Source: Treponema sp.
Lineage (GTDB): Bacteria > Spirochaetota > Spirochaetia > Treponematales > Breznakiellaceae
Direction: 5' to 3'
NCBI GenBank assembly: GCA_031275325.1
Contig: JAISOX010000174.1
Span: 1-32,738, forward strand
DNA: 32,738 nucleotides
A program made the position numbers and the translations under genes. The first letter of the stretch is position 1. The number at the start of each line of letters is the position of its first letter. The notes beneath the pieces are model-generated. The model did not search any database. It worked only from the letters and a program-made list of their open reading frames with translations, and was not told the DNA's origin. Positions 7,597-32,298 of the stretch are shown piece by piece.

Positions 7597-9408
7597 CTAG
7601 TCCGGCCGCGCTTTATGTTTGAGCGCAAAAGGTGAATATGTATAACCGGACCACTCCATACCAAGATGGCCGGCATATTCCAATAAATTAAGCCGTACCC
7701 CATGAACCACCACCGAAAGCGCGTTCATAGCAAGGTTAAGCCCATGACCAAACAGGAGAATAAGTCCCCCTGCAATGATCCGGACCGGACCTGCGGGAAG
7801 CCCCCCCGCCATGCCGTTAAAACTGCTTGCTATGGCAGCTCCTGCAAGGCCCACCGCAAAAAGACGGATATAACTGATAATATCCGAGAAACTCGATACT
7901 GCACTCAAGAAGGTAGGCAGGAAGTTTGCAAAACCCTTCCCTATATTTTTGAAAAAATTTCCTCCTTTCTGCTCAACAAAAATAAAGAAGGTCCCCAATC
8001 CGCCTCCAATAAGATACAGGGCAAAAGGGGGAACGGGGAATTCGGTTTTGGACAACACCAGGTTTAATACTAGAAAATAAAGACCCACCACCATACAGAG
8101 CCAGCCAAGCTGGGCTAGAGCAGTAAGGGAAGGCAGGGCCTTCTTGATGTTCTTGAGATGGGCCAGCACGATCTGTCCCGCCCCAACCACGAAACAAATG
8201 TGCTTAATATTCTGCTCCGAAGCGAGAAAAGGAACCTTGAAGGCCGCTAAAAACTCAGGAATATGCTGCATGGCAAACCACGAACCCGTAAGGGTTCCCC
8301 ACAGGATAGTGGTCAGAGAAAGCAAGCCTAAAAGCAGTACCCCATCGGGAACTTTCCCGGTTTGCTTTACTGATTTTATCCCAAAAATAAGCGCCCCCAG
8401 GAACAAGATAGAACCGTATCCTGCATCCCCGAAGATCATAGCAAAAAAGAAGCTAAAAAAGAGCAGATACGATAGGCTAATATCATATTCCCGATACCCT
8501 GGAGTGGTTCCCAAGAGCTTAAACAGCGGCTGAATCAGCCGGGTAAAAACATTGCTCTTGACCAAGGTCGGGGGATTATCCGTTTCATCGGGATCCCGCA
8601 AGGCCAAGGCCCAACCGTTTTCCGCTGCAGCCCGTTTTAAGGTCCCCACCGCGTCATCAGGCACATACCCGGTAAGCCATGAAACCGTAAGGTCCACCGG
8701 AACCGATTCTACCCGATCCATACCAGCCCGGGCAGTCTCAAAGGCAATACGCTGATTAAGCTCCTCAATTTCCGCTTCAACACCCGCTTGCCCGCGGGCA
8801 AACTCTGAAAAACGGGTCTCTATATCCTGCAGCTTTCCCTGGATCCCTTGGATGATCCCTCCCAGCTCCTCAAGGGAATGTTCCGGCAGGACAAAGGGCA
8901 TTTCCCCGGCAATCTCTTTGCCTACACTAAGTCCATACACCACCGCTTTATCTTCCGCAAGCCGGATAAATAGATCCTCTTTTCCCAAGGAGGCATATAC
9001 CTTACGGGGGAGTTTATAGGGGATAAGCAGGACCCCTTGGGAAGCCAAGTCTTTAAACGACCCAGGGTTGAAATTGCCCCAGCTTTCAATACGGCTTCGT
9101 TCTTTAATGGTAACCAGCAACCGTTCCTGGAGGGCCTTACGTTCATCCCCCAGGGCCAAAATTTGCTTCACTAGGTCCGCTTCACCCGGTTCCTGTATCG
9201 GCGCGACCTGAGCCGCTCCTTGATAAGGCCGCAACAAACCCAAAGCCTTTTCCGCATCGGCCTTCCGATCCAGCAACGCAGAAAGGGTGTCTGAAACAAC
9301 AGTCCGCTTCTCCAAGTGGACCACTCCCAGTTCCCGGAGCTTTTCCAGGGATACTTCCCGGGTCTTATCCATGACCACAAGGGACACTTTTTTCATCGGT
9401 ACGATCAT
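7597..9408 (-). CDS. atpI: V-type ATP synthase subunit I
   Basis: N-terminal MIVPMKKVSLVVMDKTREVSLEKLRELGVVHLE; C-terminal multi-TM domain with FGDAGYG, SYIRLFAVGLAGAAIA and LLEYAGHLG. Confidence 0.95.
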   Translation of the reverse strand: MIVPMKKVSLVVMDKTREVSLEKLRELGVVHLEKRTVVSDTLSALLDRKADAEKALGLLRPYQGAAQVAPIQEPGEADLVKQILALGDERKALQERLLVTIKERSRIESWGNFNPGSFKDLASQGVLLIPYKLPRKVYASLGKEDLFIRLAEDKAVVYGLSVGKEIAGEMPFVLPEHSLEELGGIIQGIQGKLQDIETRFSEFARGQAGVEAEIEELNQRIAFETARAGMDRVESVPVDLTVSWLTGYVPDDAVGTLKRAAAENGWALALRDPDETDNPPTLVKSNVFTRLIQPLFKLLGTTPGYREYDISLSYLLFFSFFFAMIFGDAGYGSILFLGALIFGIKSVKQTGKVPDGVLLLGLLSLTTILWGTLTGSWFAMQHIPEFLAAFKVPFLASEQNIKHICFVVGAGQIVLAHLKNIKKALPSLTALAQLGWLCMVVGLYFLVLNLVLSKTEFPVPPFALYLIGGGLGTFFIFVEQKGGNFFKNIGKGFANFLPTFLSAVSSFSDIISYIRLFAVGLAGAAIASSFNGMAGGLPAGPVRIIAGGLILLFGHGLNLAMNALSVVVHGVRLNLLEYAGHLGMEWSGYTYSPFALKHKARPD

Positions 9409-10007
9409 TGTACAGCCTTCTCCATTCCCCGTTTAGCGATCTTTCCCCGGACCACTGCAGAGGTCTGTTGATCCCCCAAGTAGACCCGGATCTTCTTGAT
9501 GTTACTCTTGGTTTCTGGGATCATGATCTTTTCAAACAGATTGACCCGCTGGGTGGTTACCCGTAATTCGTGATCCAGCCGTTTCCGCTGCTCCTCCAAA
9601 ACCTGGGCCTCCAAATCCAACAACAAGACCTGCTGCATCTTCACCACTGCCTTATCAAGCCACAGGGGACTGCGAGCCAAATCATAGGGGGCAGTGTAAA
9701 ATTCCGCCCCATGAAAGAGGGGAATAGATACGCCTGCAATATTTCCCTGACTCGTGGTAATGCTCCGTATCTGCAGAAGTTCAGGGGTAAAGAACCCGGT
9801 TTCACAAAACACCCCTATCCACGGCTTAAAAGATTCATCTACCCCTTCTTTTGCAGCTAACAATTCTTTAATGCGTAACTCAGTGGTCCTGATTTCGGCC
9901 TGAAGCTGCTGCTTCTTAAGCATCAAAGTCGGAAGGTATCGCTGATACATTTTAAGGGCGTCCTTCTGCTTCTTGAGCTCATTTTTGGTCAGCTTGATCT
10001 TTGCCAT
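9405..10007 (-). CDS. atpD: V-type ATP synthase subunit D
   Basis: KIKLTKNELKKQKDALKMYQRYLPTLMLKKQQLQ...TTQRVNLFEKIMIPETKSNIKKIRVYLGDQQ. Confidence 0.95.
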   Translation of the reverse strand: MAKIKLTKNELKKQKDALKMYQRYLPTLMLKKQQLQAEIRTTELRIKELLAAKEGVDESFKPWIGVFCETGFFTPELLQIRSITTSQGNIAGVSIPLFHGAEFYTAPYDLARSPLWLDKAVVKMQQVLLLDLEAQVLEEQRKRLDHELRVTTQRVNLFEKIMIPETKSNIKKIRVYLGDQQTSAVVRGKIAKRGMEKAVQ

Positions 10008-10013
10008 GCCTGA

Positions 10014-11312
10014 TTATTCCTTCTTGGGCCAGAACTTCGCAATCAGTTCAGAACGAAGCCCCGTTTCTTCAGGACTGAAACAATCCGCCAGGATCTCCCA
10101 GCCCAAATCCAGCGCCCGTTCCAAAGGAATGTTGACCGACAAATCCATCATCCCCTTTTCAAAACGATCCCCGTACTTGAGCAGCTTATCATCCCATAGG
10201 GTCATAATAAAGCCCATAGCTTTCTTTTCCAGAGTATCCTTATAGGCTGAGTAGAGCTTGATCATACCATCCATCAGGGCCCGGTGGTCCGGCCGGGTTT
10301 TGCCGTTGATCTGCTGTTTCAACCGGGACAGGGAGCCGAAGGGCTCGATGCGGCCGTTTTTCAGGTAGTACTGGCCCTCGGTGATATAGCCCGTGTTGTC
10401 CGGTACCGGGTGGGTTACGTCATCTCCCGGCATGGTGGTAACTCCCAAGATGGTAATGGACCCTGCGGTATCGAAATCCACGGCCTTTTCATAACGGCTT
10501 GCCAACTGGCTATAGAGGTCTCCGGGATACCCCCGGTTAGAGGGGACCTGCTCTTGAATGATGGAGATTTCCTTCATGGCGTCGGCAAAGTTAGTCATAT
10601 CCGTGAGCAGTACCAGTACATCCTTACCTTGCAAGGCAAACTGTTCCGCCACTGCCAGGGACATATCGGGAATCATAAGGCACTCTACCGTAGGGTCTGA
10701 GGCGGTATGCACAAACATCACGGTACGGGAAAGGGCGCCCCCTTCTTCCAAGGCGTCTTTAAAAAACAGGTAGTCGTCGTATTTAAGCCCCATGCCCCCC
10801 AAAACAATCACATCCACCTCGGCCTGCATCGCAATCCGGGCCAAGAGATCGTTATAGGGTTCCCCGGAAACCGAAAAAATAGGCAACTTCTGAGAAACCA
10901 CCAGGGTATTAAACAGATCGATCATGGGAATACCGGTCCGGATCATCCTCCGGGGGATGATCCGCTGCGCGGGATTTACCGAAGGCCCTCCAATGGGGAT
11001 GAGGTTCTCATGGAGCGCCGGCCCTCGATCCCGGGGATCCCCGGAACCGGAAAAAACCCGGCCCATGAGATTTTCCGAAAAAGACACCTGCATGGGATGT
11101 CCCAGAAACCGCACCGTATCCCCGGTAGAAATACCCCGGCCCCCGGCAAATACCTGGAGAGAAACCAAATTACCTTCCAGGCGGTTTACCTCCGCCAAGG
11201 AGGTTCCAAATACCGTATCCACCTCCGCCAGATCTCCATACCGGATATCTTCGGCCTTGACGGTGATAACGCTCCCCGTGATGGATTCAATCTTACTATA
11301 TACCTTGTTCAT
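10014..11312 (-). CDS. atpB: V-type ATP synthase subunit B
   Basis: [12 protein letters not shown]-like [25 protein letters not shown] and [32 protein letters not shown]. Confidence 0.97.
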
Positions 11313-11333
11313 TGCTGATTCTCCCTCTGTACC

Positions 11334-13094
11334 CTACGCCAGGAATTGCTCCGCAGCCTTATCCACCCCTTGGGACCGTTCAGCCACCACGGCATCCAGT
11401 TCCTTTTGCAATGCCTTGAACTGCTCACTTTTCCACTCCGTACCATTGTAATCCAGGAACCGCTGTCTAAGCCGGTTGAACCAGGTCCGGGCCTCATTCT
11501 TATCCGTAAAAGTAAACTTAGAGGCCAAGATCTTGAGGATAATGGTGAAGATATACTGCTGTCTCTCAGGAATCGCAGCACAATCCACAGGATTGAAGGA
11601 GTCCTGCTGGAAATACACCGCATCCAGGAAATCCCCCTTGAGGTAAACCACATAGTCATCAAGGCTGGTTCCTTCCTCACCCACCACCTTCATCATCTGC
11701 TCCACTTCACTGCCCCGGAACATGAACCTATGGGCATAGGCAACCTTATCTCCCGGGATAATCCCCTTGTATTTAGACCAGGACTCCAGAGGATGAATGG
11801 CAGGGTACTTACGGGCATCTGAACGTTCCCGGGAAAGCCCATGAAACGCCCCCACCACCTTGAGGGTCGCCTGGGTTACCGGCTCTTCAAAGTTACCTCC
11901 TGCAGGGCTTACGGTTCCGCCTATGGTAACCGAGCCCATAGAACCATCCCGGAGCCGCACCAAGCCCGCTCGTTCATAGAAACTGGCAATGGTAGATTCC
12001 AAGTATGCAGGGAAAGCCTCTTCCCCAGGGATCTCCTCCAAACGGCCAGACATCTCACGCATGGCTTGGGCCCACCGGCTCGTAGAGTCCGCCAAAAGCA
12101 GGATGTTCAGCCCCATCTGGCGGTAGTATTCCGCCAGGGTTACCGCTGTATACACCGAAGCCTCCCGGGCCGCTACAGGCATGGAAGAGGTATTACAGAT
12201 GATTACGGTCCGTTCCATAAGGGATCGGCCGGTTTTCGGGTCGGTGAGTTCTGGAAATTCCTTGAGGGTCTCCACTACTTCCCCTGCCCGTTCACCGCAG
12301 GCCGCAAGGACCACAATATCCACATCCGCATTACGGCTGGTGATCTGCTGGAGTACGGTTTTACCCGCGCCAAAAGGTCCAGGAATACAATACGTCCCCC
12401 CCCGGGCTACCGGGAAGAAGGTGTCAATCAGCCTGACCTTGGTAACCATAGGATCTTCCGGCTTGAGCCGTTCTTCATAGCAATCCACCGGACGTTTTAC
12501 CGGCCACCGGAAGGACATAGCCACCGGAAAACGGTTGCCTTTCTCATCCTTTAATTCCGCAATAGTCTCCCGGATGGTATAGGACCCCGCTTCCCTGATG
12601 GACGCCACAGTATAGGAACCGTACAGGTTAAAAGGGACCATGATACGATGGGTAAAAGAACCTTCCGGCACGGTTCCCAGGGTATCAGCCCGTTCCACCG
12701 GATCCCCTACCTTTACCGCGGGGGTAAAGGCCCAAGGCACATCCAAGGGAAGGGGATCCAGGTACACCCCCCGTTCCAAGAAATAACCCGCCTCTTGAGC
12801 CAGTTTAGGGAGGGGGTTCTGGAGCCCGTCAAAGACCTGCCCTAAAAGGCCGGGCCCCACTTCTACGGCCAACATATCCCCCGAATATTCCACCGTATCT
12901 CCTACGGCGATCCCTTTGGTGATCTCAAACACCTGGAGCTGGGATATATCCCCCCGGATGCGGATCACCTCACTCTTGAGCCGTTTATCTCCCACCTTAA
13001 CATAGCCGACTTCGTTCATGGAAACCGCGCCTTCAAAACGGACGCTCACCATATTGCCGTTAACCGCGACTACTGTTCCTTTTGTTCCGGTCAT
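11334..13094 (-). CDS. atpA: V-type ATP synthase subunit A (catalytic)
   Basis: Walker A GPFGAGKTV, ERAGEVVETLKEFPEL, LLADSTSRWAQAMREMSGRLEEIPGEEAFPAYL. Confidence 0.97.
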   Translation of the reverse strand: MTGTKGTVVAVNGNMVSVRFEGAVSMNEVGYVKVGDKRLKSEVIRIRGDISQLQVFEITKGIAVGDTVEYSGDMLAVEVGPGLLGQVFDGLQNPLPKLAQEAGYFLERGVYLDPLPLDVPWAFTPAVKVGDPVERADTLGTVPEGSFTHRIMVPFNLYGSYTVASIREAGSYTIRETIAELKDEKGNRFPVAMSFRWPVKRPVDCYEERLKPEDPMVTKVRLIDTFFPVARGGTYCIPGPFGAGKTVLQQITSRNADVDIVVLAACGERAGEVVETLKEFPELTDPKTGRSLMERTVIICNTSSMPVAAREASVYTAVTLAEYYRQMGLNILLLADSTSRWAQAMREMSGRLEEIPGEEAFPAYLESTIASFYERAGLVRLRDGSMGSVTIGGTVSPAGGNFEEPVTQATLKVVGAFHGLSRERSDARKYPAIHPLESWSKYKGIIPGDKVAYAHRFMFRGSEVEQMMKVVGEEGTSLDDYVVYLKGDFLDAVYFQQDSFNPVDCAAIPERQQYIFTIILKILASKFTFTDKNEARTWFNRLRQRFLDYNGTEWKSEQFKALQKELDAVVAERSQGVDKAAEQFLA

Positions 13095-13735
13095 TTCGGT
13101 TCTCCCGATTCAATACTGATTTCAGATACTCCTCCGCCTGCTGACGCACGTCCACCGGCAGCCGCCATGATAGCGGTATAAAGCCCCTTATACGCCACAA
13201 ACCCTTCCTCTGCGCTGAATGAAGCGCGCCGTTCCATGAGGAGCAGCCGCAGAAGATAGGCGTAGATAGTAGTAACTCCAAAATAATCAAGCCCCTGCAT
13301 GGCCTCAATGGCGTTCCACCGGGCCTGGTCAAGGAAAAGTTCCGCTTCCAAAGGCGATTCTATCCCTAAAGCAGCCTTAGCAAGGGCCCCTGCCTCCACC
13401 GGATCTTCCGGCGGGTCCACTGGCGCAACCCCTTCCTGCCCCAAAACCTGGGCCCGGTACCGGGCAAGGTTCAGCCGCAAAGCCCGCTCCCAATGCCGCC
13501 ACGTATTGATGAAGGGGGACGGGGTAGCCCTAGACGCGTCCCGGTACGAACCAGGCTTCCCTTCCTCCAGCGGCAGGGCTTCCGGATCCGGGTCTAAGGT
13601 ACACCAATCCAACAGGGCCGCATCCTGGGGACGCAACGCGGTTTTACAGAGCGCCTTGAACTGCACCGAAGATAAAGGGACCGCCTGGCCGTAGATGAGA
13701 TAGGGAAGCTGGGACACTAAATAATAATAAGCCAC
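13091..13735 (-). CDS. DUF2764-like protein in the V-ATPase operon
   Basis: MAYYYLVSQLPYLIYGQAVPLSSVQFKALC; 4-nt overlap with atpA; position between atpE and atpA. Family call is from memory. Confidence 0.7.
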   Translation of the reverse strand: MAYYYLVSQLPYLIYGQAVPLSSVQFKALCKTALRPQDAALLDWCTLDPDPEALPLEEGKPGSYRDASRATPSPFINTWRHWERALRLNLARYRAQVLGQEGVAPVDPPEDPVEAGALAKAALGIESPLEAELFLDQARWNAIEAMQGLDYFGVTTIYAYLLRLLLMERRASFSAEEGFVAYKGLYTAIMAAAGGRASAGGGVSEISIESGEPK

Positions 13736-14643: not shown

Positions 14644-15135
14644 ATGAAGTATCCTGAGGATAGAACGGAGTATCCGCTGGACAGAACGGAGTATCCGCTG
14701 GACAGAATGAAGTATCCGCTGGACAGAATGAAGTATCCGCTGGACAGAATGAAGTATCCGCTGGACAGAATAGAGTATCCGCTGGACAGAACGGAGTATC
14801 CGCTGGACAGAACGGAGTATCCGCTGGACAGAACGGAGTATCCGCTGGACAGAATAGAGTATCCTGAGGACAGAATAGAGTATCCTGAAGCCAGAATGGA
14901 GTATCCGGTGGACAGAACGGACTATCCGGACGGCAAAATAAAGCGTCCGGACGCGCCCATGAAACAGGCCCGGTTTTGCAAAGCCCGGCTACCGTTCCGC
15001 GCTATCACCAATCAAAGGCAAAAAGCGCTTTCTCATGGTAATCCCGGTCAGGGCCGTAGATCGATGAGGGAAACTGGGGCTTGTTGGGCGCGTCTGGAAA
15101 GTGCTGGGTTTCAAGGCAGAAACCGCTGTGTTTGA
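14644..15135 (+). other. Array B heptad ORF, 163 aa; coding status uncertain
   Basis: Open frame starting with ATG at the array edge and a weak AGGGG upstream. The non-repeat tail is antisense to the galM 3' end. Confidence 0.35.
14647..14961 (+). repeat. Tandem array B: about 15 units of 21 bp, consensus RAGTATCCGCTGGACAGAAYR
   Basis: Heptads KYPEDRT, EYPLDRT, EYPLDRM, KYPLDRM and so on to KRPDAPM; perfect 21-bp register. Confidence 0.98.
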
Positions 15136-23315: not shown

Positions 23316-23792
23316 ATGTCTATACGAGGGGTGCCGCTAAAAAGTTTTTTTGAAAATCTCATTTTTTTATCTTCTATTTCAAGCTGGTTTTTTGCACAGC
23401 TTATCAAAACGATGATTGTATTGCTTAATGCCCGTAAAAAAAGTACCCGGGAAATACTCGCGATTATGGTCTGGCGTACCGGGGGGATGCCCTCAAGCCA
23501 TGCGGCCTTAGTTTCATCTTTAACCACATCGGTCGCTTTTAAAGAAGGGATCGGGTCGAATTTGTTTGCCGTATCTTTTTGGTTTGCCCTCCTTGTTATG
23601 CGAGACGCCATGGGGGTACGTCGCTCTTCAGGAATCCAAGCCAGGGTGCTCAATCTGCTCGGGCGGAATGTGGCGGATCGCCTGGATGTGGAATATCATC
23701 CGGTCAAAGAAGTCCATGGACATGCGCCGCTGGAAGTAGTGGTAGGGGCATTTCTGGGTATCTTCATTGCTGCGGCATACGCTAGTTTATAG
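23316..23792 (+). CDS. DUF212 / divergent PAP2-family membrane protein
   Basis: QLIKTMI..., MVWRTGGMPSSHAALVSSLTTSVAFKEGIGSNLFAVSFWFALLVMRDAMGVRRSSGIQA. Confidence 0.85.
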   Translation: MSIRGVPLKSFFENLIFLSSISSWFFAQLIKTMIVLLNARKKSTREILAIMVWRTGGMPSSHAALVSSLTTSVAFKEGIGSNLFAVSFWFALLVMRDAMGVRRSSGIQARVLNLLGRNVADRLDVEYHPVKEVHGHAPLEVVVGAFLGIFIAAAYASL

Positions 23793-23803: not shown

Positions 23804-25366
23804 ATGTCCTCTGGGAAGTCCCTGCTCTTAGCGTCCCTGCTCTCCCTTGGCCTTGGGGCTTTCATGGTTTTTCTCGTCCTTACTCTTATGCCGTTGGCAA
23901 GTAACCGGGGTTATGCGGTACTTACAGTGGATGCCTCCTATCCAGATCAGCTTATTGGAGACCTGCTTGCATCGGAAGCCTTTACCCAAGGGTTTCTATC
24001 CGAGTCTAATCAATGGGTGTTTTTGGATGATTTTGGAACCTTGCAGCGGATACCCTTGGATGCGTACCGGGATCGGGTTGAACCTTTTGATCTTCGGGAT
24101 GACGGCTACGCGGAAAAGCTGAGGGCTTTTTTTGTGCATGAGGGAAAACGGCTTTTCTTTATCCCCTTTTCAGGAGGCTCCCGCTTCTCCGATCCCTGGC
24201 TTAATAAGCCCGGAATCAGGGCTTTTGAAGCGTCCCTGGCCGCAGTTTTGAAAACCATTCCTTTTTCTCTTACCTTTCTCGGTTCTGAGAAGCCTATGTT
24301 GTTTTATTTCCTCCTCTTTGCAGCGGCTGCCGGGGCAACCCTGGTTCTTTCTGGAGATCCCCTGATCATCTTGGCGCTTCTGCCGATCCTGGGATCTTTG
24401 GTATTTGCCGGGCCTCCGGGTTTTGCCCTTTGTGCGGCTCTCGTGGTTCTGGCCGGAATAGCTGCTGAACCCCTCAGGAAACGCTGGGCCGCCTACCGGT
24501 ACGGCCAGGATTGTACCCAAGGCAGGGACCCTGCTAAGAACCGTGCTAAGGTATACCCTGCATTGGCAGTCCTCTTGACAGGGGCGCTGCTCTTTTTAGG
24601 GATATTTGGTATCTTGTATGGTATGGCTGTACCTGCCGGGAGCATGACCAGAACCTCAGGAAAAAGCCTAATAAAGGTAGGAATCGCGGTCTTGGTATGT
24701 TCTGGGTTTATGCTCTGGGTGGCCCTCTGGCTCGAAGCAAACCAAGGGAAAGCTCAGAATCATGTACGGTTTATGCCGGTACGGATCATGGAATCTGCCA
24801 AGTGGGGACCGATTAACCGGACCATCCTTCCCTTTGCCCTGGTTTCCCTGGTTGCCCTCTATGGACCCTGGTTGTATGAGGGCCTGCATGCCTATGATGA
24901 TCCGGAGTTTATCGTTGACCCTCGGTATCTCATTGATGCAGGGGCCTATGAAAACCATGCATGGTATCAGGCTTCTTTTTCCTTGATTCCTCTGGGAAGC
25001 AGTCAGGACCTGGATTATCCCCATAAGGGCGATCCACCAGGATTGACCTATCGACAGTACCGCTTAGGGGAAGATGGGCTCATCGCAGGCATGGGAGGGT
25101 ATGAACAGACCCTTTCCCCTGATGACAACCAGGTGATTCCCCCCTTCCCCTTGGAAGACCTCATAGCATTTCTTGAAGGTTTCCGGCATACTGGAGGAGG
25201 GTCGCCAAGCCGTATGAAGATGTTTACGGCTACGTTGCTTAATATGATAGGATTGCTATTACTATGTATGGCTTCGGGTTTGTATAGTACGGTTCTAAGC
25301 TGGTTTAAGCAGGCTGGAAAAAAGAGAAATAGCGTGGTATATAATGAGAAACGGATAGCCGCATGA
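23804..25366 (+). CDS. Polytopic membrane protein of unknown function, translationally coupled to the rnfC-like gene
   Basis: 520-aa ORF with multiple hydrophobic segments and a large hydrophilic region; its stop overlaps the rnfC start (ATGA). Confidence 0.8.
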   Translation: MSSGKSLLLASLLSLGLGAFMVFLVLTLMPLASNRGYAVLTVDASYPDQLIGDLLASEAFTQGFLSESNQWVFLDDFGTLQRIPLDAYRDRVEPFDLRDDGYAEKLRAFFVHEGKRLFFIPFSGGSRFSDPWLNKPGIRAFEASLAAVLKTIPFSLTFLGSEKPMLFYFLLFAAAAGATLVLSGDPLIILALLPILGSLVFAGPPGFALCAALVVLAGIAAEPLRKRWAAYRYGQDCTQGRDPAKNRAKVYPALAVLLTGALLFLGIFGILYGMAVPAGSMTRTSGKSLIKVGIAVLVCSGFMLWVALWLEANQGKAQNHVRFMPVRIMESAKWGPINRTILPFALVSLVALYGPWLYEGLHAYDDPEFIVDPRYLIDAGAYENHAWYQASFSLIPLGSSQDLDYPHKGDPPGLTYRQYRLGEDGLIAGMGGYEQTLSPDDNQVIPPFPLEDLIAFLEGFRHTGGGSPSRMKMFTATLLNMIGLLLLCMASGLYSTVLSWFKQAGKKRNSVVYNEKRIAA

Positions 25367-26694
25367 AAGTATATACATTTCCTCAGGGGGGGATACATTT
25401 CACAGACCCTACCGCTCCTCCTGCATCGGAGAGTGTGGTGGCGTTTCTTCCGGTCCTTTCGGTCATACCCCTGGTACAGCATCCAGGAGCCAAGGCCCTT
25501 CCCCTTGTTTCAGGGGGTTCTTCTGTTCGAGAGGGTATGCTCATAGGTCGTGCTCAAGGTCCTGGATCCGCGCATATTCATGCCACGGTTCCCGGCCAGG
25601 TGGTCCGGATAGTTTCCTGGGAAATGGCCGAGGGGCTTACCAATGAGGGCCTTGTGGTGCGCCTGAAGGGGAGTTTCGAGCAACTGGGAAAACCTGAGGA
25701 GCGGTTTGCTTGGGAACAATTAGAACCTGGGGAACTACAACAGCACATAGTGGAATATGGTATTGTGGAAATGGAAGGTTCCGGTCGTCCCTTAGCGGAT
25801 CTGTTTGCTTCATTAGATAAAACGCCTGAACCCATCACCCTGGTGGTCCGTTGTGTGTTTGACGACCCCTGGCTGGTAGCGGACTATGTACTATGCCAGG
25901 AACGGGCCGCAGCAGTGGTGGAAGGAAGCATCATTCTAGGACGGGCCTGTAGGGTCAGCCGTATCGTGTATGCGGTCTCTGCCAAAGAGAAGGATCTGGG
26001 GACTATGCTGTTGGCAGAGGCCCAGTCCTATGCTATACCGGCATCCTTGGTTTTGGTCAGTTCCCGGTATCCCCAGCGAAACCCCCGGGAATTGGAACTG
26101 GCCTTACGGGCTTATGAAAAGTCTGAGAAAAGTGAAGTCCCTGCAGAGCCCGCCTTAGGGTCCCTTCTCATCCAAGGCCCTGCTACCTTGGCTGCGGTTC
26201 GAGACGCCCTGGTCTTGCACCGGCCTATTCTGGATCGATATGTGGCGGTAGGAGGTTCGGCAGTAAAGAAACCCCAAGTTATGAAAGCAAGGATAGGTAC
26301 CCGGATAGGGGATATCTTCGCTGAATGTGGAGGGTTTACCGGCGAACCGCAGCGGATCATCCTGGGGTCTCCCCTGTCAGGCCGGAGGGTCTTTGAGAAA
26401 AATATGGACGAACCGGTGATTAAAACCAGTTATGCCCTGAGCGCGCTCTTGGCCAAACAGACCGGCGGTAAGGTTGTGCGGAACTGTATCGGCTGTGGGG
26501 CATGCAGGACCGTGTGTCCTGTTGGTTTGGATCCAGAAGCCTTATTCAAGGGCCTTGTTTTTTTTAAAAAAAAGCAGAAACAAAATAACGGAAGGGGCGT
26601 GGAATGTCACGGCTGCGGCTGCTGCGATCTGGTGTGTCCTTCACGGTTTTCCTTGAGTACCGCCATCGTAAACGCCGCCCTGGGGGAACGCTGA
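25363..26694 (+). CDS. rnfC: RnfC-like electron transport complex subunit
   Basis: GGIHF N-terminus, CIGCGACRTVCP and CHGCGCCDLVCPS 4Fe-4S motifs, C-D-G-E-A gene order. Confidence 0.88.
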   Translation: MKVYTFPQGGIHFTDPTAPPASESVVAFLPVLSVIPLVQHPGAKALPLVSGGSSVREGMLIGRAQGPGSAHIHATVPGQVVRIVSWEMAEGLTNEGLVVRLKGSFEQLGKPEERFAWEQLEPGELQQHIVEYGIVEMEGSGRPLADLFASLDKTPEPITLVVRCVFDDPWLVADYVLCQERAAAVVEGSIILGRACRVSRIVYAVSAKEKDLGTMLLAEAQSYAIPASLVLVSSRYPQRNPRELELALRAYEKSEKSEVPAEPALGSLLIQGPATLAAVRDALVLHRPILDRYVAVGGSAVKKPQVMKARIGTRIGDIFAECGGFTGEPQRIILGSPLSGRRVFEKNMDEPVIKTSYALSALLAKQTGGKVVRNCIGCGACRTVCPVGLDPEALFKGLVFFKKKQKQNNGRGVECHGCGCCDLVCPSRFSLSTAIVNAALGER

Positions 26695-27774
26695 ATGCCG
26701 GAAAAAGACGTCTTATGGTATCAACGGGCCCAGATACATCTTTCCTGTCCTAGTGCAGAACGGATGTGGCTGGTCAGTTTATGCGCAGGCTTGGCTATCT
26801 TCCAGTCTTCCCTGAGCGACTCCTTTGCTTCGTTGTTCATCGCCCTCAGCACGGTGCTTGCAGCGGTACTTACCGAATTTCTGTTCTATTTCAGAACCGA
26901 AAAAGCGGGCATGGTCCGGGATGGGAGTTCTGTGGCATCCGCCTTGGTCCTGGCGCTCCTCTTGCCGAATAACCTCCATCCCATATACGCGGTCATGGGC
27001 GGGGTATTTGCTATGGCAGTGGTGAAGCACAGTTTTGGCGGCCTGGGATCCAACTGGATGAATCCTGCCATAGGAGGCTGGCTTTTTATCCGCTGTTCCT
27101 GGCCTGACACCTTTAATAAAGCCTTGGAAATGTCCCCCTTGGCCATAGTATCAGCGGGGATGGGGCAGGGTCTTTTGGATCCGAGCGGTTCTCCTTTGGA
27201 GATCCTCCACCTGGCGGAGGCCGGTTATTTTTCTTCTCCTGCCGGTTCTTTGGAGTGGATGGTCCAGTCCTTCCTGAACAGCCGTCTTTTTTCCATCATC
27301 GGCATTGAATTACCTGACGGGTATATCGAGTTTTTCAATTCATCAGGGATAGGTATTATTGCAGACCGGGGTGTTTTTGCCTTGCTTCTGGGAACTATCA
27401 TCATTACCGCTTCCCAGATAAGCCGGTCCTGGGTTCCTGCGGTCTACTTGGGGGTGTATGGCTTGCTCATTAGACTGTTTGGGGCCCTGCCTTTTGGAGG
27501 CGCCCTGGGGAATGGGGATATATTCTTCGGATTCTTTTCAGGGGGTACCATGGTAGCAGCTTTTTTATTGATTGCCGATCCCGCGACCGGGCCAAAGTCG
27601 AATTGGGGAGCCTTGCTTATGGCAGCAGGAGCAGGAGGGTTGACGTTTATATTCCGCTATCACGGCTTAGAGGCCTATGGCGCTTTTGTCGCCGTAGGCA
27701 TGATCAACGCCTTAGTTCCCTTGATGCGAGATATGGAAAGCCGGAGGTTTTATGAAACGGGGAGCACGGTATGA
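26695..27774 (+). CDS. rnfD: RnfD-like membrane subunit
   Basis: NqrB/RnfD-like: VRDGSSVASALVLALLLP, HPIYAVMGGVFAMAVVKHSFGGLGSNWMNPAIGGWLF, LIADPATGPKS. Confidence 0.88.
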   Translation: MPEKDVLWYQRAQIHLSCPSAERMWLVSLCAGLAIFQSSLSDSFASLFIALSTVLAAVLTEFLFYFRTEKAGMVRDGSSVASALVLALLLPNNLHPIYAVMGGVFAMAVVKHSFGGLGSNWMNPAIGGWLFIRCSWPDTFNKALEMSPLAIVSAGMGQGLLDPSGSPLEILHLAEAGYFSSPAGSLEWMVQSFLNSRLFSIIGIELPDGYIEFFNSSGIGIIADRGVFALLLGTIIITASQISRSWVPAVYLGVYGLLIRLFGALPFGGALGNGDIFFGFFSGGTMVAAFLLIADPATGPKSNWGALLMAAGAGGLTFIFRYHGLEAYGAFVAVGMINALVPLMRDMESRRFYETGSTV

Positions 27775-28295
27775 GGCATGGGGATAGCGAACCGGTAGGC
27801 GCTTGGGATAGGGCAAAAGCAGCAGGTTATTCGTTCAGAACCCAGGATACCCTTAAAGAGCGGGGTATCTACATTGGATGGATTGCCGGGATCCTCCTCG
27901 TGGGAGGGGGGCTCTGGTTTTTTACCCAGTCTCTGCGGACCACCCTGTTGTTGCAAACCGTAAACCAGGTCTTAGAAACCCTGCAAGACTCCCGGCGTTT
28001 GGAAAGGCGTATCCCCGGGCAGGTATTTTGGGGCCGCCTCCCCTGGGGAAACTGGTATACCCTGGCGGATTCGGAAGACCGGGTCCTGGTATTTTCCCTG
28101 ATGAGTAATGGTATCTTCATTCCCTGTATGGCAGTGGTTTCTTCAGGTACGGGTAAGGTGGTGGATGATAAGATCCTGCCCTTAACCAGCCACCCGGAAC
28201 AGACCCTCAAACAGATTCCCCGGGGACTCATTAAAACCTATATCCGGCGTATAGAAAGCCCCTCATTCTCACAGACAGGAGCGGCAAGGCAATGA
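27771..28295 (+). CDS. rnfG: RnfG-like subunit, short, no SGAT motif
   Basis: Single N-terminal TM plus periplasmic domain; position between rnfD-like and rnfE-like genes with 4-nt overlaps. Confidence 0.65.
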   Translation: MRHGDSEPVGAWDRAKAAGYSFRTQDTLKERGIYIGWIAGILLVGGGLWFFTQSLRTTLLLQTVNQVLETLQDSRRLERRIPGQVFWGRLPWGNWYTLADSEDRVLVFSLMSNGIFIPCMAVVSSGTGKVVDDKILPLTSHPEQTLKQIPRGLIKTYIRRIESPSFSQTGAARQ

Positions 28296-28927
28296 ATCGA
28301 CGGCTTCAAACCTATGTGCTGGGGAATTCCCATACCCCCCTTTCCACCTTGGCAGGGGGAGGGCTTTTGATCATCGCCTCAAGCCGATTTGCCTTTGCCT
28401 TGGTTGCCTGTGTTGCCCTCTTGTGGGTCTACGGATTGACCGGGCTTACCGCTTTTGTGGCAAAGCCGATTCTGCCGAAACAAGGGGTCAGGGTGATTCT
28501 CCTCTTTTTATCAAGCCTCATAGGAAGCCTTTTCCTGTTACTCCTCTGGTTGATGAGCCCCCTCCTTGCTCTGGGAAGCGCGTTTATCATCCTGCTCTGT
28601 CCGGTGTACTGCATGGGTTCTGAGATTTTTGCCCATCTTGCTTCTGAGACCTTGGAAAAGGTCTTGGTTAAAACCCTGATAGACGCTGCGATACTGGGGT
28701 TTCTTATCATCGTCTTTGCCCTAATCCGGGAACCCCTGGGTTTTATGACCCTCTCGCTCCCTGTAGGAAAGGGTCAAGGGATGGTGGAACTCTTCAAGGA
28801 TGAAGATGGGACGTCTTTGTTCCCGATTCGGATCCTGGCAAGCGCCGGAGGGGCCTTACTGCTGTTGGGATACGGGGCGGCCTTGTTTCGTTACCTGAGA
28901 AAGCCCTACAGCAAAGAGGAGTTGTGA
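28292..28927 (+). CDS. rnfE: RnfE-like membrane subunit
   Basis: RnfE/NqrD-like pattern: TLIDAAILGFLIIVFALIREPLGFMTL; operon position. Confidence 0.75.
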   Translation: MNRRLQTYVLGNSHTPLSTLAGGGLLIIASSRFAFALVACVALLWVYGLTGLTAFVAKPILPKQGVRVILLFLSSLIGSLFLLLLWLMSPLLALGSAFIILLCPVYCMGSEIFAHLASETLEKVLVKTLIDAAILGFLIIVFALIREPLGFMTLSLPVGKGQGMVELFKDEDGTSLFPIRILASAGGALLLLGYGAALFRYLRKPYSKEEL

Positions 28928-28928
28928 T

Positions 28929-29507
28929 ATGCTGGGCTTGCTTGTTTTTTCAGGTTTTACCTTAAACCTGGTACTACACGGCGCCTTGGGAATAGGCAGC
29001 ATCGCGGAAGGGCAGGAGCAGTCCCATCCTATTCCCCTGTTTCAATTAGGGATCCTCTTTGTATCGGTATTCCTCCTCTGGATGCTTGCATCCTATGGCC
29101 TGGTTTTTCTTGCGTTTGGTTTCTTGGAATATGCGCTGCTGTTTCCCCTGAGCGCCTTGGTTTGTATGGGCCTTGAGGGTCTCTGTACCCGTTTGCTCCC
29201 CTCCCTGGCGCCGGAATACAAAGTGTTTAACCCTGCTACTGCTTACGACGGTCTGGTCTTAGGTTCTCTGATGATGAGCCTTCATATCGCCCGGACCATT
29301 ATGGAAGCCCTTATCCTGTCTTTGGGGTTTTCTTTGGGCGCCTTGCTTTCCATGGCGCTGCTCAACGAAATCCGTAAGCGTTCTTCCCTGGAGCTGGTTC
29401 CTCCCTTTATGCAAGGCCGCCCCCTGATGCTCATATCCGGGGGACTCTTATCTTTGCTTTTTACCGCGCTGGGGCTTATCTTCTTCAGCGCCTTGGGGAT
29501 ATTCTGA
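28929..29507 (+). CDS. rnfA: RnfA-like membrane subunit
   Basis: RnfA/NqrE-like C-terminus (LILSLGFSLGALLSMALLNEIRKR...LVPPFMQGRPLMLISGGLLSLLFTALGLI); operon position. Confidence 0.75.
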   Translation: MLGLLVFSGFTLNLVLHGALGIGSIAEGQEQSHPIPLFQLGILFVSVFLLWMLASYGLVFLAFGFLEYALLFPLSALVCMGLEGLCTRLLPSLAPEYKVFNPATAYDGLVLGSLMMSLHIARTIMEALILSLGFSLGALLSMALLNEIRKRSSLELVPPFMQGRPLMLISGGLLSLLFTALGLIFFSALGIF

Positions 29508-29700: not shown

Positions 29701-31653
29701 ATGGATCATATATTACGGTTTATCTTGGGCTCCCATTATCATATCCCCTATGGAGTGGGGGATGATGAATTTGAAGCAGCCTATAAAACGAACTTGAAAC
29801 CTTTTGTCTCAACATTATACAAATACCCCACAATTCAGGCGACCCTGCATTATTCCGGCGTCTTGCTGTATTGGCTTGAGAAAGCCCATCCTGAATTTTT
29901 CATGCTCCTTGAAGACCTGGTTTCCCGAAAACAGATCGAATTGCTGGGAGGCGGTTTCTATGAACCCATGATGCCCCTCATACCCCTCTCCGATAAGATA
30001 GGGCAGATCGAGATGCTGACCACCTACCTGCGCAAGCACTTTGGGAAGCGGCCCCAGGGTTGCAGGCTGCCGGCCCTGGCCTGGGAACCGCATATTGTGG
30101 GGCCTTTGAGTACCTGCGGGATGAGCTATACCTTCTTGGAAGAGCGGCAATTCACCCTGGCAGGGGCTGAGGTAACAGAACCCTGCATCACCGAGGATCA
30201 GGGCAAGCTCCTCACCATTTTTCCGGTTTCAAACCGGTTTAAGGAAGCCTTTGCCCAAAGAAGGGCGGCTCAGGTATTAGAGGAATGGGTACACGAACAG
30301 GACTATGGTGATGAGTCTGTGCAGAACCCCGCAGGAGGCGGGAATAAGCTCATCTGTGTTTTTCCAGAACAGCTCTTTGCCGAAAACCGCGCTTCCGAGT
30401 CAGTGGAAATGCGGTTCCACCGGTTTTTTGAAGACCTTTCCAGTTTTGAGTCCCGCATTGAGTTTACCAGTCCAGGAAAACTGTTTAAGGGGCTGCGGGG
30501 CTTAAAAAAAATATACTTTCCCGTTTCCCAGGAAGCAGGGGCCTTATCCGAAGACAGGGCCTCTAATCCTGCGGTCCGGCAATTTTTAATCGACTACCCG
30601 GAGGCAAACCATATCTATGCCAAGATGATGTTTACCCACGTATTGATCAACCAGCTTAGAGGGGATAAATCCCGGAAACGTATTGCCCGGGAGGAACTGT
30701 GGAAGGCTCAAGGGTTTGACGCGTTTTGCCCCGGAGCCTATGGAGGGGTATGCCGGCACTCCATCAGGAAGGCGGCCTACAAAGCCCTTTTGCAGGCGGA
30801 GAAGATAAGCCGGGAACAGAGCGGTTTTATCCCTTCGGTATTGCATTTTGATTTTGATCTGGACGGTGAAGGGGAGTATCTGTTTAGGAATGGGTATATC
30901 AACTGCTATATACAGCTTGAAGGCGCAGCGGTCTTTGAGTTAGATTATCTTCCCAAGGTCTGGAATTATCTGGATACCTTTGCACCGGGATTCAGGCGGA
31001 CTAGTTTTGCGGATTATCTGGTTTCCCCGGAACTCACCTTTCAGGATGCCTTGGAAGGAGTTTTACAAAGTCCCCAGGCCCGGTTTACCCACCGGTATTG
31101 CGGAGGGGAACCTTTTGAGCTGGTCAGCATGGATAAGGAGCATGAGCAGGTTCATTTTCGGCTTCCGGTACATCCAGGGCTGCCTTATGGGAATATAGAA
31201 CTGGAGAAGCGTTATCAGATAAGAAAAGATACCCTCAAGGTAACCTATGTGCTTATCAACCGAGGAACCGGCACGGAAACCGGCAGGTTTATCCCCAGCT
31301 TGGACCTTTCTTTTCCTGGAGAGGGGGAATCGTTTGTACGCCTGGTGAAGTTCCCGGCAGCGCCTAGTACTACGCCTGCATCTGAAGAACCAGAAACAGC
31401 CAGCTTGGCTCTGGAAGGGACGGTTATTACCGATGCAGAAGGTATTACCTTGGAAGACCTCAAGAACGAGGTCTTCATTACGCTAAAATCGGACCTCAAT
31501 TTTGACGCCTGGATTGTGCCTATCCGTACTCCCTGCCGTATCCAGGGAGCGCTGCACCCGATGTACCAATCCACCTGTATCATGCCCATAAGACCCTTCG
31601 TGCTTGAACCGGGGGATTGCCTTGCCGCTGAGTTTAGTTTAAGGATTTATTGA
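29701..31653 (+). CDS. Glycoside hydrolase family 57 (alpha-amylase / 4-alpha-glucanotransferase type)
   Basis: HYHIPYGVGDDEFEAAY, ELLGGGFYEPMMPLIP, LPALAWEPHIVGPLSTCGMSYTFLEE; DUF1925/1926-like C-terminus. Confidence 0.9.
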   Translation: MDHILRFILGSHYHIPYGVGDDEFEAAYKTNLKPFVSTLYKYPTIQATLHYSGVLLYWLEKAHPEFFMLLEDLVSRKQIELLGGGFYEPMMPLIPLSDKIGQIEMLTTYLRKHFGKRPQGCRLPALAWEPHIVGPLSTCGMSYTFLEERQFTLAGAEVTEPCITEDQGKLLTIFPVSNRFKEAFAQRRAAQVLEEWVHEQDYGDESVQNPAGGGNKLICVFPEQLFAENRASESVEMRFHRFFEDLSSFESRIEFTSPGKLFKGLRGLKKIYFPVSQEAGALSEDRASNPAVRQFLIDYPEANHIYAKMMFTHVLINQLRGDKSRKRIAREELWKAQGFDAFCPGAYGGVCRHSIRKAAYKALLQAEKISREQSGFIPSVLHFDFDLDGEGEYLFRNGYINCYIQLEGAAVFELDYLPKVWNYLDTFAPGFRRTSFADYLVSPELTFQDALEGVLQSPQARFTHRYCGGEPFELVSMDKEHEQVHFRLPVHPGLPYGNIELEKRYQIRKDTLKVTYVLINRGTGTETGRFIPSLDLSFPGEGESFVRLVKFPAAPSTTPASEEPETASLALEGTVITDAEGITLEDLKNEVFITLKSDLNFDAWIVPIRTPCRIQGALHPMYQSTCIMPIRPFVLEPGDCLAAEFSLRIY

Positions 31654-31683: not shown

Positions 31684-32298
31684 ATGGAATTTCCTGCCCG
31701 GAGCATGAAACTTCCTGCCCGGAACGAGAAACTTCCTGTTCAGAACTTGGAACTTGCTGCTCGGAGCATGGAACTTGCTGTTCAGAGCATGAAACTTCCT
31801 GCCCGGAACGAGAAACTTCCTGCTCTGAGCATGAAACTTGCTACTTGGAGCATGAAACTTCCTGTTCAGAACATAAAACTTGCTGCTTGGAACATGGAAC
31901 TTCCTGTTCAGAACTTGGAACTTGCTGCTTGGAACATGAAACTTCCTGTTCGGAACATAAAACTTCCTGCTCAGAACTTGGAACTTCATGATTGGAGCAT
32001 GGAACTTCCTGCTCTAAGCATGAAACTTGCTGCTTGGAGCATAAAACTTCCTGTTCAGAACTTGGAACTTCCTGCTCGGAACGAGAAACTTCCTGTTAAG
32101 AGCATAGAACTTCCTGCTCAGAGCATAGAACTTGCTGCTTGGAGCATGAAACTTCCTGTTCGGAACATAAAACTTCCTGCTCAGAGCTTGAAACTTCCTG
32201 CTCCGAGTACGGAGCTTGCCGTTCATAAAGAAGAACATGCTGTTCGGAACCTGGGGGACACTTTACCGAAACGACTCCGGGGAACCCGTCTCGGTTGA
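31684..32298 (+). other. Array C heptad ORF, 204 aa; coding status uncertain (minus-strand ORFs 31639-31989 and 32014-32238 cover the same array)
   Basis: ATG at the array edge, no clear ribosome-binding site; both strands lack stops because the unit is 7 codons long. Confidence 0.3.
31687..32253 (+). repeat. Tandem array C: 27 units of 21 bp, consensus RAACTTSCTGYTYRGARCATG
   Basis: (32253-31687+1)/21 = 27 exactly; heptads EFPARSM, KLPARNE, KLPVQNL, ELAARSM and so on to EHAVRNL, no indels. Confidence 0.99.

Follow-up and report, generated by a model that had tools for sequence, protein, structure and literature searches.

The Rnf complex takes electrons from ferredoxin through RnfB, the [2Fe-2S] cluster of RnfA/E, the FMN of RnfG, the FMN and riboflavin of RnfD and the two clusters of RnfC to FMN and NAD+ (PMC11889175). 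In Acetobacterium woodii, activity is abolished by mutation of the AE1 cysteines, of RnfG T185 or of the riboflavin contacts of RnfD, which are N123 and D249 (PMC11889175). The motif for covalent flavinylation is D-x-x-[ST]-G-A-[ST] (PMC12052999). The Na+-NQR is thought to come from a duplicated rnf operon in which rnfB and the RnfC cofactors were lost and the membrane core was kept (PMC4014512). For Treponema pallidum, published models draw a flavodoxin-driven, flavin-dependent RNF pump (PMC7512555, PMC10194888, PMC11717252). GH57 proteins that resemble 4-alpha-glucanotransferases and lack the catalytic residues are also known (PMC6037648). Here we describe an Rnf-like operon, rnfC-D-G-E-A, in a 32,738-nucleotide stretch of DNA from Treponema sp. 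(family Breznakiellaceae; assembly GCA_031275325.1, contig JAISOX010000174.1), referred to below as the window.

We consider it probable that this operon is the ancestral Rnf locus of the class Spirochaetia after the loss of its redox core: what would remain is an iron-sulphur module at the cytoplasmic face, held on a membrane core dead to redox chemistry. The U-shaped electron path is broken at five points by sequence. Lacking RnfB, the two covalent FMNs, the cluster of RnfA/E and the FMN/NADH motifs of RnfC, the complex should be unable to pump by the Rnf mechanism; it is almost certainly no ferredoxin:NAD+ pump, unable to couple oxidoreduction to the transport of Na+ or H+.

Redox sites of the Rnf-like operon

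The subunit genes lie on the forward strand in the order given by an initial annotation of this DNA, with a GH57 gene after rnfA, and their reading frames and coordinates check out. The RnfC-like protein (25363..26694, + strand) and the RnfD-like protein (26695..27774, +) are recognised by TIGR01945 (E 2e-64) and PF03116 (E 2e-50), respectively. The RnfA-like protein (28929..29507, +) has a weak family score (TIGR01943 E 3e-11; 44 bits, the cut-off being 229), and the RnfE-like (28292..28927, +) and RnfG-like (27771..28295, +) proteins had no match to their own families in the family-model searches. Profiles of six sequences match the solved RnfE and RnfA chains with E 4e-45 and E 1e-52, and these two proteins are therefore identified as Rnf subunits. 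The RnfG-like protein has one transmembrane helix and a small periplasmic alpha/beta domain; the top three PDB matches of its AlphaFold model (pLDDT 81.5) are RnfG structures (8rb9, 8rb8 and 8ahx), with weak E values of 0.13-0.31. The operon thus holds homologues of RnfC, D, G, E and A, with the assignment of G, made mainly by position (synteny) and topology, being a weak one.

The redox motifs were checked by alignment to solved complexes and to canonical copies, among them the copy in the same genome (L033), and were surveyed in 80 related loci of the family from public genomes (Treponema metagenome-assembled genomes, MAGs; the relatives include Breznakiella homolactica). The losses named in the initial annotation are all there. 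No rnfB lies between rnfA and the GH57 gene; the family loci yielded one weak RnfB match, and the sole rnfB above cut-off in the window's genome sits in a canonical operon on contig 30. In RnfC, the canonical GMGGAGFP, AECEPY and YPQGGEKML read EMEGSGRP, FDDPW and YPQRNPREL. Across the family, the FMN/NADH motifs (GxGGxxFP, ECEPY, YPxGxEKxL) are replaced by the conserved EMEGxGxP, VFDDPW and YPQRNxREL: GxGGxxFP and ECEP are each found in 0/80 proteins, and VFDDPW stands instead in 78/80. RnfA reads GIGS and AYDG at the positions of the Cys motifs, with both [2Fe-2S] cysteines lost, and the positions aligned with A. woodii Y105 and T111 are changed too. RnfE has lost the first cysteine and has the second aligned one (C107), which leaves the window with one of the four RnfA/E ligands. 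C107 is missing from about half of the family, and the Cys motifs were found in 0/74 RnfA and 0/75 RnfE. The covalent FMN motif, sought as D-x-x-[ST]-[GA]-[AS]-[TS], is present in neither RnfD nor RnfG of the window, nor elsewhere in the family (0/78 RnfD, 0/76 RnfG).

Ligands at shifted positions were considered and rejected. A scan of all columns of RnfA, E, D and G (~75-80 family loci) found no cysteine conserved above 50% in RnfA or RnfE, and no other conserved cysteine that could take the place of the lost ones appears in the family alignments of these two subunits. Lone cysteines are conserved at RnfD C30 (87% of the family) and RnfG C119 (78%).

The cytoplasmic-face sites have fared differently. 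Both [4Fe-4S] motifs of RnfC (CxxCxxCxxxC) are kept in the window, at C375/378/381/385 and C415/418/421/425. They are found together in 78/80 family RnfC proteins, the two exceptions lying at contig ends, and the eight cysteines are present in 94/94 RnfC proteins of a wider alignment. RnfD of the window keeps the residues that contact riboflavin: the FGGLGxNWxNPA pattern, with N123, and the Asp of xADP. Judging by the cysteines, RnfC very probably does carry its clusters.

The missing parts might be borrowed, which would make the complex a hybrid electron-transfer pump using RnfB, RnfG or flavoproteins encoded elsewhere, for instance TP0171-like FMN_bind lipoproteins. Such genes exist in the window's genome: a search found a full second, canonical rnf operon with rnfB on contig 30, apbE and two further FMN_bind proteins. 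The rnfB belongs to the contig 30 operon, and neither it nor the ApbE substrates can replace the RnfA/E cluster, the only membrane-crossing cofactor between RnfB and RnfG. We rejected completion from elsewhere because electrons cannot cross RnfA/E without the [2Fe-2S] cysteines, for which the family has no conserved replacement, and regard a hybrid pump as most unlikely.

Origin and repeated stripping of the locus

The window's genome (2.15 Mb, 66% complete) thus contains two rnf operons, and the one on contig 30 is a canonical rnfCDGEAB with all motifs present. The window's operon belongs by synteny and RnfC clade to another locus, DUF212-X520-rnfCDGEA(B)-GH57, which is spread across the class Spirochaetia (X520 being a 520-aa membrane protein). 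In many other families this same locus encodes a complete Rnf, RnfB included, with every motif present, and it holds the sole RnfC in most such genomes. The RnfC tree unites the GH57-linked loci, intact and stripped, in a clade with SH-aLRT 99 and places the canonical second copies of the order in a separate one (100). This rules out a recent duplication of the genome's own canonical Rnf. Since its RnfC groups with the intact loci of other Spirochaetia families, the window's operon appears to be the old, vertically inherited Rnf locus of the class in a stripped state; the canonical operon appears to be a different lineage, perhaps an acquired one. The initial annotation had proposed a repurposed Rnf paralogue rather than a standard ferredoxin:NAD oxidoreductase. 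The complex is indeed non-standard, and repurposing is likely from the sequences, but by the RnfC tree it is no recent paralogue of the genome's canonical Rnf. The suggestion that the degenerate forms might make up a conserved clade is borne out by the family loci and the RnfC tree.

Half-stripped states exist within the order: in one genome (G036), RnfB and the full set of four cysteines are present and RnfD contains SGAT. RnfB and most of the cysteines are retained in family f4 and in some members of f5, and they are gone from f1, f3 and the rest of f5. Shortened RnfB-like proteins (~170-195 aa) with ferredoxin-type Cys motifs persist without the RnfA/E cysteines at three loci of f3 (L088, L090, L093) and one of f1 (L050). 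In the f3 genomes with a short RnfB, what survives is again the Fe-S parts on the cytoplasmic side rather than the path through the membrane. Loss of the [2Fe-2S] cysteines takes 6 changes on the best GH57 tree and at least 4 by its well-supported branches, a count that comes from this one gene tree, the Rnf genes not being used. By this count, the locus appears to have been stripped several times independently, with at least 4-6 losses.

A second, canonical RnfC coexists with 24/26 stripped loci and with 6/21 intact loci (Fisher p 8e-6, uncorrected for kinship). Outside the order the figures are 4/4 for stripped and 3/18 for intact loci; the absence of a second Rnf is uncertain in some genomes, as the MAGs are incomplete. 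That a second Rnf permits stripping is suggestive, with only 2-4 independent pairs on the tree. The correlation would also fit slow pseudogenisation, in which a redundant Rnf decays beside a second one and has no current function. This seems very unlikely to us, and not only because the correlation itself rests on those few independent pairs. Reading frames are intact across the family, and dN/dS within the genus is 0.155 for RnfC, 0.178 for RnfD, 0.328 for RnfG, 0.219 for RnfE, 0.211 for RnfA, 0.296 for X520 and 0.173 for GH57. The stripped genes are under purifying selection, and pseudogene decay was rejected on these frames and ratios (0.16-0.33). The new RnfC motifs VFDDPW and YPQRN vary little or not at all within the family, and the operon is kept in a 1.14-Mb genome without a canonical Rnf.

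Constraint within the complex is inverted with respect to the canonical copies. In four family genomes, the most conserved canonical subunits are RnfA (identity 0.78) and RnfE (0.77), with RnfD at 0.71 and RnfC at 0.70. At the stripped locus of the same four genomes, RnfA (0.29) and RnfE (0.33) are the least conserved, with RnfC at 0.52 and RnfD at 0.49. A loss of membrane redox function, with a function kept at the cytoplasmic face, would give this pattern.

Genomes that hold only the stripped complex

The stripped complex is also kept without a canonical Rnf beside it, since two genomes, G045 and G194, have the stripped locus only. G045 is a single contig of 1,139,633 bases, a complete genome matching T. 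pallidum. Its locus, at 170.4-177.0 kb, has the order GH57-A-E-G-D-C-DUF212, without X520. From genome size and position we infer that it is the tp0147-tp0153 region of T. pallidum. A tp0151 variant has been placed at 174,174 in a T. pallidum genome of 1,139,562 bp (PMC7162541), and RnfD of G045 lies at 173,895-174,914. In the proteins of the G045 locus, the RnfA/E cysteines are absent, the FMN/NADH motifs of RnfC cannot be recognised, and neither RnfD nor RnfG contains a flavinylation motif; RnfC has all eight cluster cysteines. A search of the G045 genome found no other RnfC, no PF02508 match for RnfA/E and no RnfB match. In G194, which is 99% complete, there is no PF02508 match and no FMN_bind protein in the genome, and the RnfB model matches one fragment far below its cut-off.

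These genomes bear on the hybrid pump as well. T. pallidum has ApbE, TP0171 is among the flavinylated proteins listed (PMC12052999), and the published models assume a noncanonical, flavodoxin-driven RNF in this species (PMC7512555, PMC11717252). Such a pump would nevertheless have to work in T. pallidum without a recognisable RnfB, and in G194 without any FMN_bind protein and with the RnfB fragment at most. A T. pallidum with the stripped form alone would conflict with the proposed role as a flavin redox pump, and a flavin RNF pump in this species seems unlikely from its genes. No paper noting the stripped state was found in the literature searched, which did not include the original 2015 proposal of a T. 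pallidum RNF. Should T. pallidum have no Rnf-like complex other than the stripped one, the central flavin-driven RNF pump cannot work as drawn, and the source of its ion gradient becomes an open, testable question.

Possible function, partner genes and known systems

The surviving part would be RnfC, carrying two [4Fe-4S] clusters and docked on riboflavin-containing RnfD, over a redox-dead scaffold of RnfA, E and G. The riboflavin in RnfD and the two RnfC clusters would form one continuous stretch of the old path at the cytoplasmic face. This stretch might exchange electrons locally between RnfD and a soluble partner, docking at the former FMN/NADH site where VFDDPW and YPQRN would present a new surface; we put forward such a local relay tentatively. 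Alternatively, the clusters might sense the redox state and shift the conformation of the membrane core together with X520, DUF212 and the GH57-like protein, and this role of sensor or regulator we hold to be somewhat doubtful. One or other of these two roles at the cytoplasmic face is what we favour; a path for ions or solutes is quite unlikely.

Several points weigh against a retained redox module. Not every member of the family has the riboflavin contacts of RnfD: of 78 proteins, 71 show the Asn pattern and 7 do not, and the Asp position is occupied by Asp in 57 and by Glu in 16. In several other stripped lineages the riboflavin contacts are altered. The presence of clusters and riboflavin is read from residues only, and what the RnfC cysteines bind could be structural clusters or a different metal. 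Mixed assembly with canonical Rnf subunits is possible where both are present, which is not the case in G045 or G194.

The role of the complex might also be free of redox chemistry altogether, as a structural scaffold or a path for ions or solutes in which the RnfC clusters are structural only, and X520 perhaps a half-RND-like transporter driven or supported by RnfD. We consider this rather unlikely. RnfD is described as a structural relative of the ammonium/urea transporters (PMC12174285), and NqrA is an RnfC homologue without any cofactors that has been kept as a structural subunit (PMC4014512). However, NqrA lost its cluster cysteines, whereas the RnfC proteins considered here (94/94) keep all eight while all else decays. 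X520 (23804..25366, +) regularly accompanies the locus, whether intact or stripped, and its profile matches 91/148 genomes across the class. It has an N-terminal transmembrane helix, a periplasmic domain and further transmembrane helices, and no Pfam or NCBIfam family matches it. The best PDB matches of its AlphaFold model (pLDDT 74) are only RND-superfamily proteins, and X520 may weakly resemble one half of an RND transporter. These matches are weak (best E 0.003, TM 0.26), so the fold search led to no family assignment, and X520 is absent from the T. pallidum locus, which counts further against a transporter built around it. In two other loci, X520 lies beside GH57 with no Rnf between them (L160, where DUF212 is present too, and L180), and Rnf is found elsewhere in those genomes; the X520-GH57 linkage thus outlives Rnf.

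The GH57-family protein (29701..31653, +; PF03065 E 2e-31) is encoded by the last gene of the locus. In its alignment to 1k1w, the position of the catalytic nucleophile Glu (E123 of the Thermococcus litoralis 4-alpha-glucanotransferase) is Ala124 in the window, and all other conserved acidic residues are kept. A residue other than Glu takes the nucleophile position in almost every member of the window's family and in most of f3, including T. pallidum; 31 compared GH57 sequences, mostly from other families, retain the Glu. Because the nucleophile is lost, these sequences suggest that the GH57 partner has become non-catalytic in the window's family. The first gene of the locus (23316..23792, +) encodes a DUF212 membrane protein of the divergent PAP2 family (PF02681 E 1e-42), in the same position class-wide.

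We prefer the retained iron-sulphur module as the account of this operon. Taken to its full extent, the proposal would be that spirochaetes have repeatedly turned the Rnf pump into a redox-decoupled complex that serves a new function under selection and of which only the cytoplasmic [4Fe-4S] module still works (with riboflavin in the window's family), possibly together with a dead GH57 and an RND-like protein, and that T. pallidum depends on this complex and lacks an Rnf pump altogether. We regard the evidence for this whole proposal as evenly balanced.

Upstream of the locus in the window lie mreB, pbp2 and rodA. A link to them was considered and rejected: they adjoin the locus in the window and in L035, were not found in the other stretches examined, and their position is taken as local. 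A V-type ATPase operon (subunits I, B and A recognised) lies at 7597-13735 on the - strand, ~10 kb upstream of the stripped locus. The window also contains arrays of 21-bp tandem repeats at 1-549, 14644-14928 and 31684-32203 (13-26 copies, 75-90% matches), of which those at 14644 and 31684 fall in open frames and can be translated into heptad repeats. On contig 30, the canonical rnf operon has a similar heptad-repeat frame next to it (ORF L033 9756-10196).

The locus amounts to a natural experiment: one operon is intact, half-stripped or fully stripped in several independent lines, and the RnfC clusters are always kept. It shows which parts of an ion-pumping respiratory complex are dispensable and what stays useful. 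Counts of 'rnf genes present' in surveys of treponeme genomes can overstate energy conservation.

Compared with the solved Rnf complexes of A. woodii (9eri), Clostridium tetanomorphum (7zc6) and Azotobacter vinelandii (8ahx), the window's locus has the same order C-D-G-E-A, homologous C, D, E and A subunits, the two [4Fe-4S] motifs of RnfC and the riboflavin contacts of RnfD. It differs in having no RnfB, no complete set of RnfA/E [2Fe-2S] ligands and no covalent FMN sites, and in the replacement of the RnfC FMN/NADH motifs. The complex is homologous to the Rnf oxidoreductase but fails its defining features, and should not be annotated as one. With the intact GH57-linked loci of other Spirochaetia families (L155, L174, L163) it shares the synteny DUF212-X520-rnf-GH57 and its place in the RnfC tree. 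Those loci, in contrast, keep RnfB, the four RnfA/E cysteines, the RnfC FMN/NADH motifs and, in most, the RnfD flavinylation motif, and their genomes usually have no other Rnf.

The 'noncanonical RNF' of T. pallidum (tp0147-tp0153) is a stripped locus of the same kind, GH57-A-E-G-D-C-DUF212 with the eight RnfC cysteines and no RnfB; it lacks X520, its RnfA and RnfE have diverged further still, and it has been published as a flavin redox pump. The locus GH57 resembles the GH57-like proteins without catalytic residues (PMC6037648) in aligning with 1k1w and in having lost the nucleophile Glu in the window's family, but it differs in belonging to an Rnf locus and in that the Glu is retained in some other families. 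In the Na+-NQR (NqrABCDEF), as in the spirochaete locus, divergence from Rnf went along with a lost RnfB and a rewritten RnfC (PMC4014512). The Na+-NQR has an NqrF subunit, covalent FMN on NqrB and NqrC, and an RnfC-like subunit free of Fe-S motifs; the window's locus has no NqrF-like gene and no flavinylation motifs, and its RnfC has Fe-S motifs. The NQR kept the redox core and lost the RnfC clusters, whereas the spirochaete locus did the opposite, as a mirror image of the proposed origin of the Na+-NQR.

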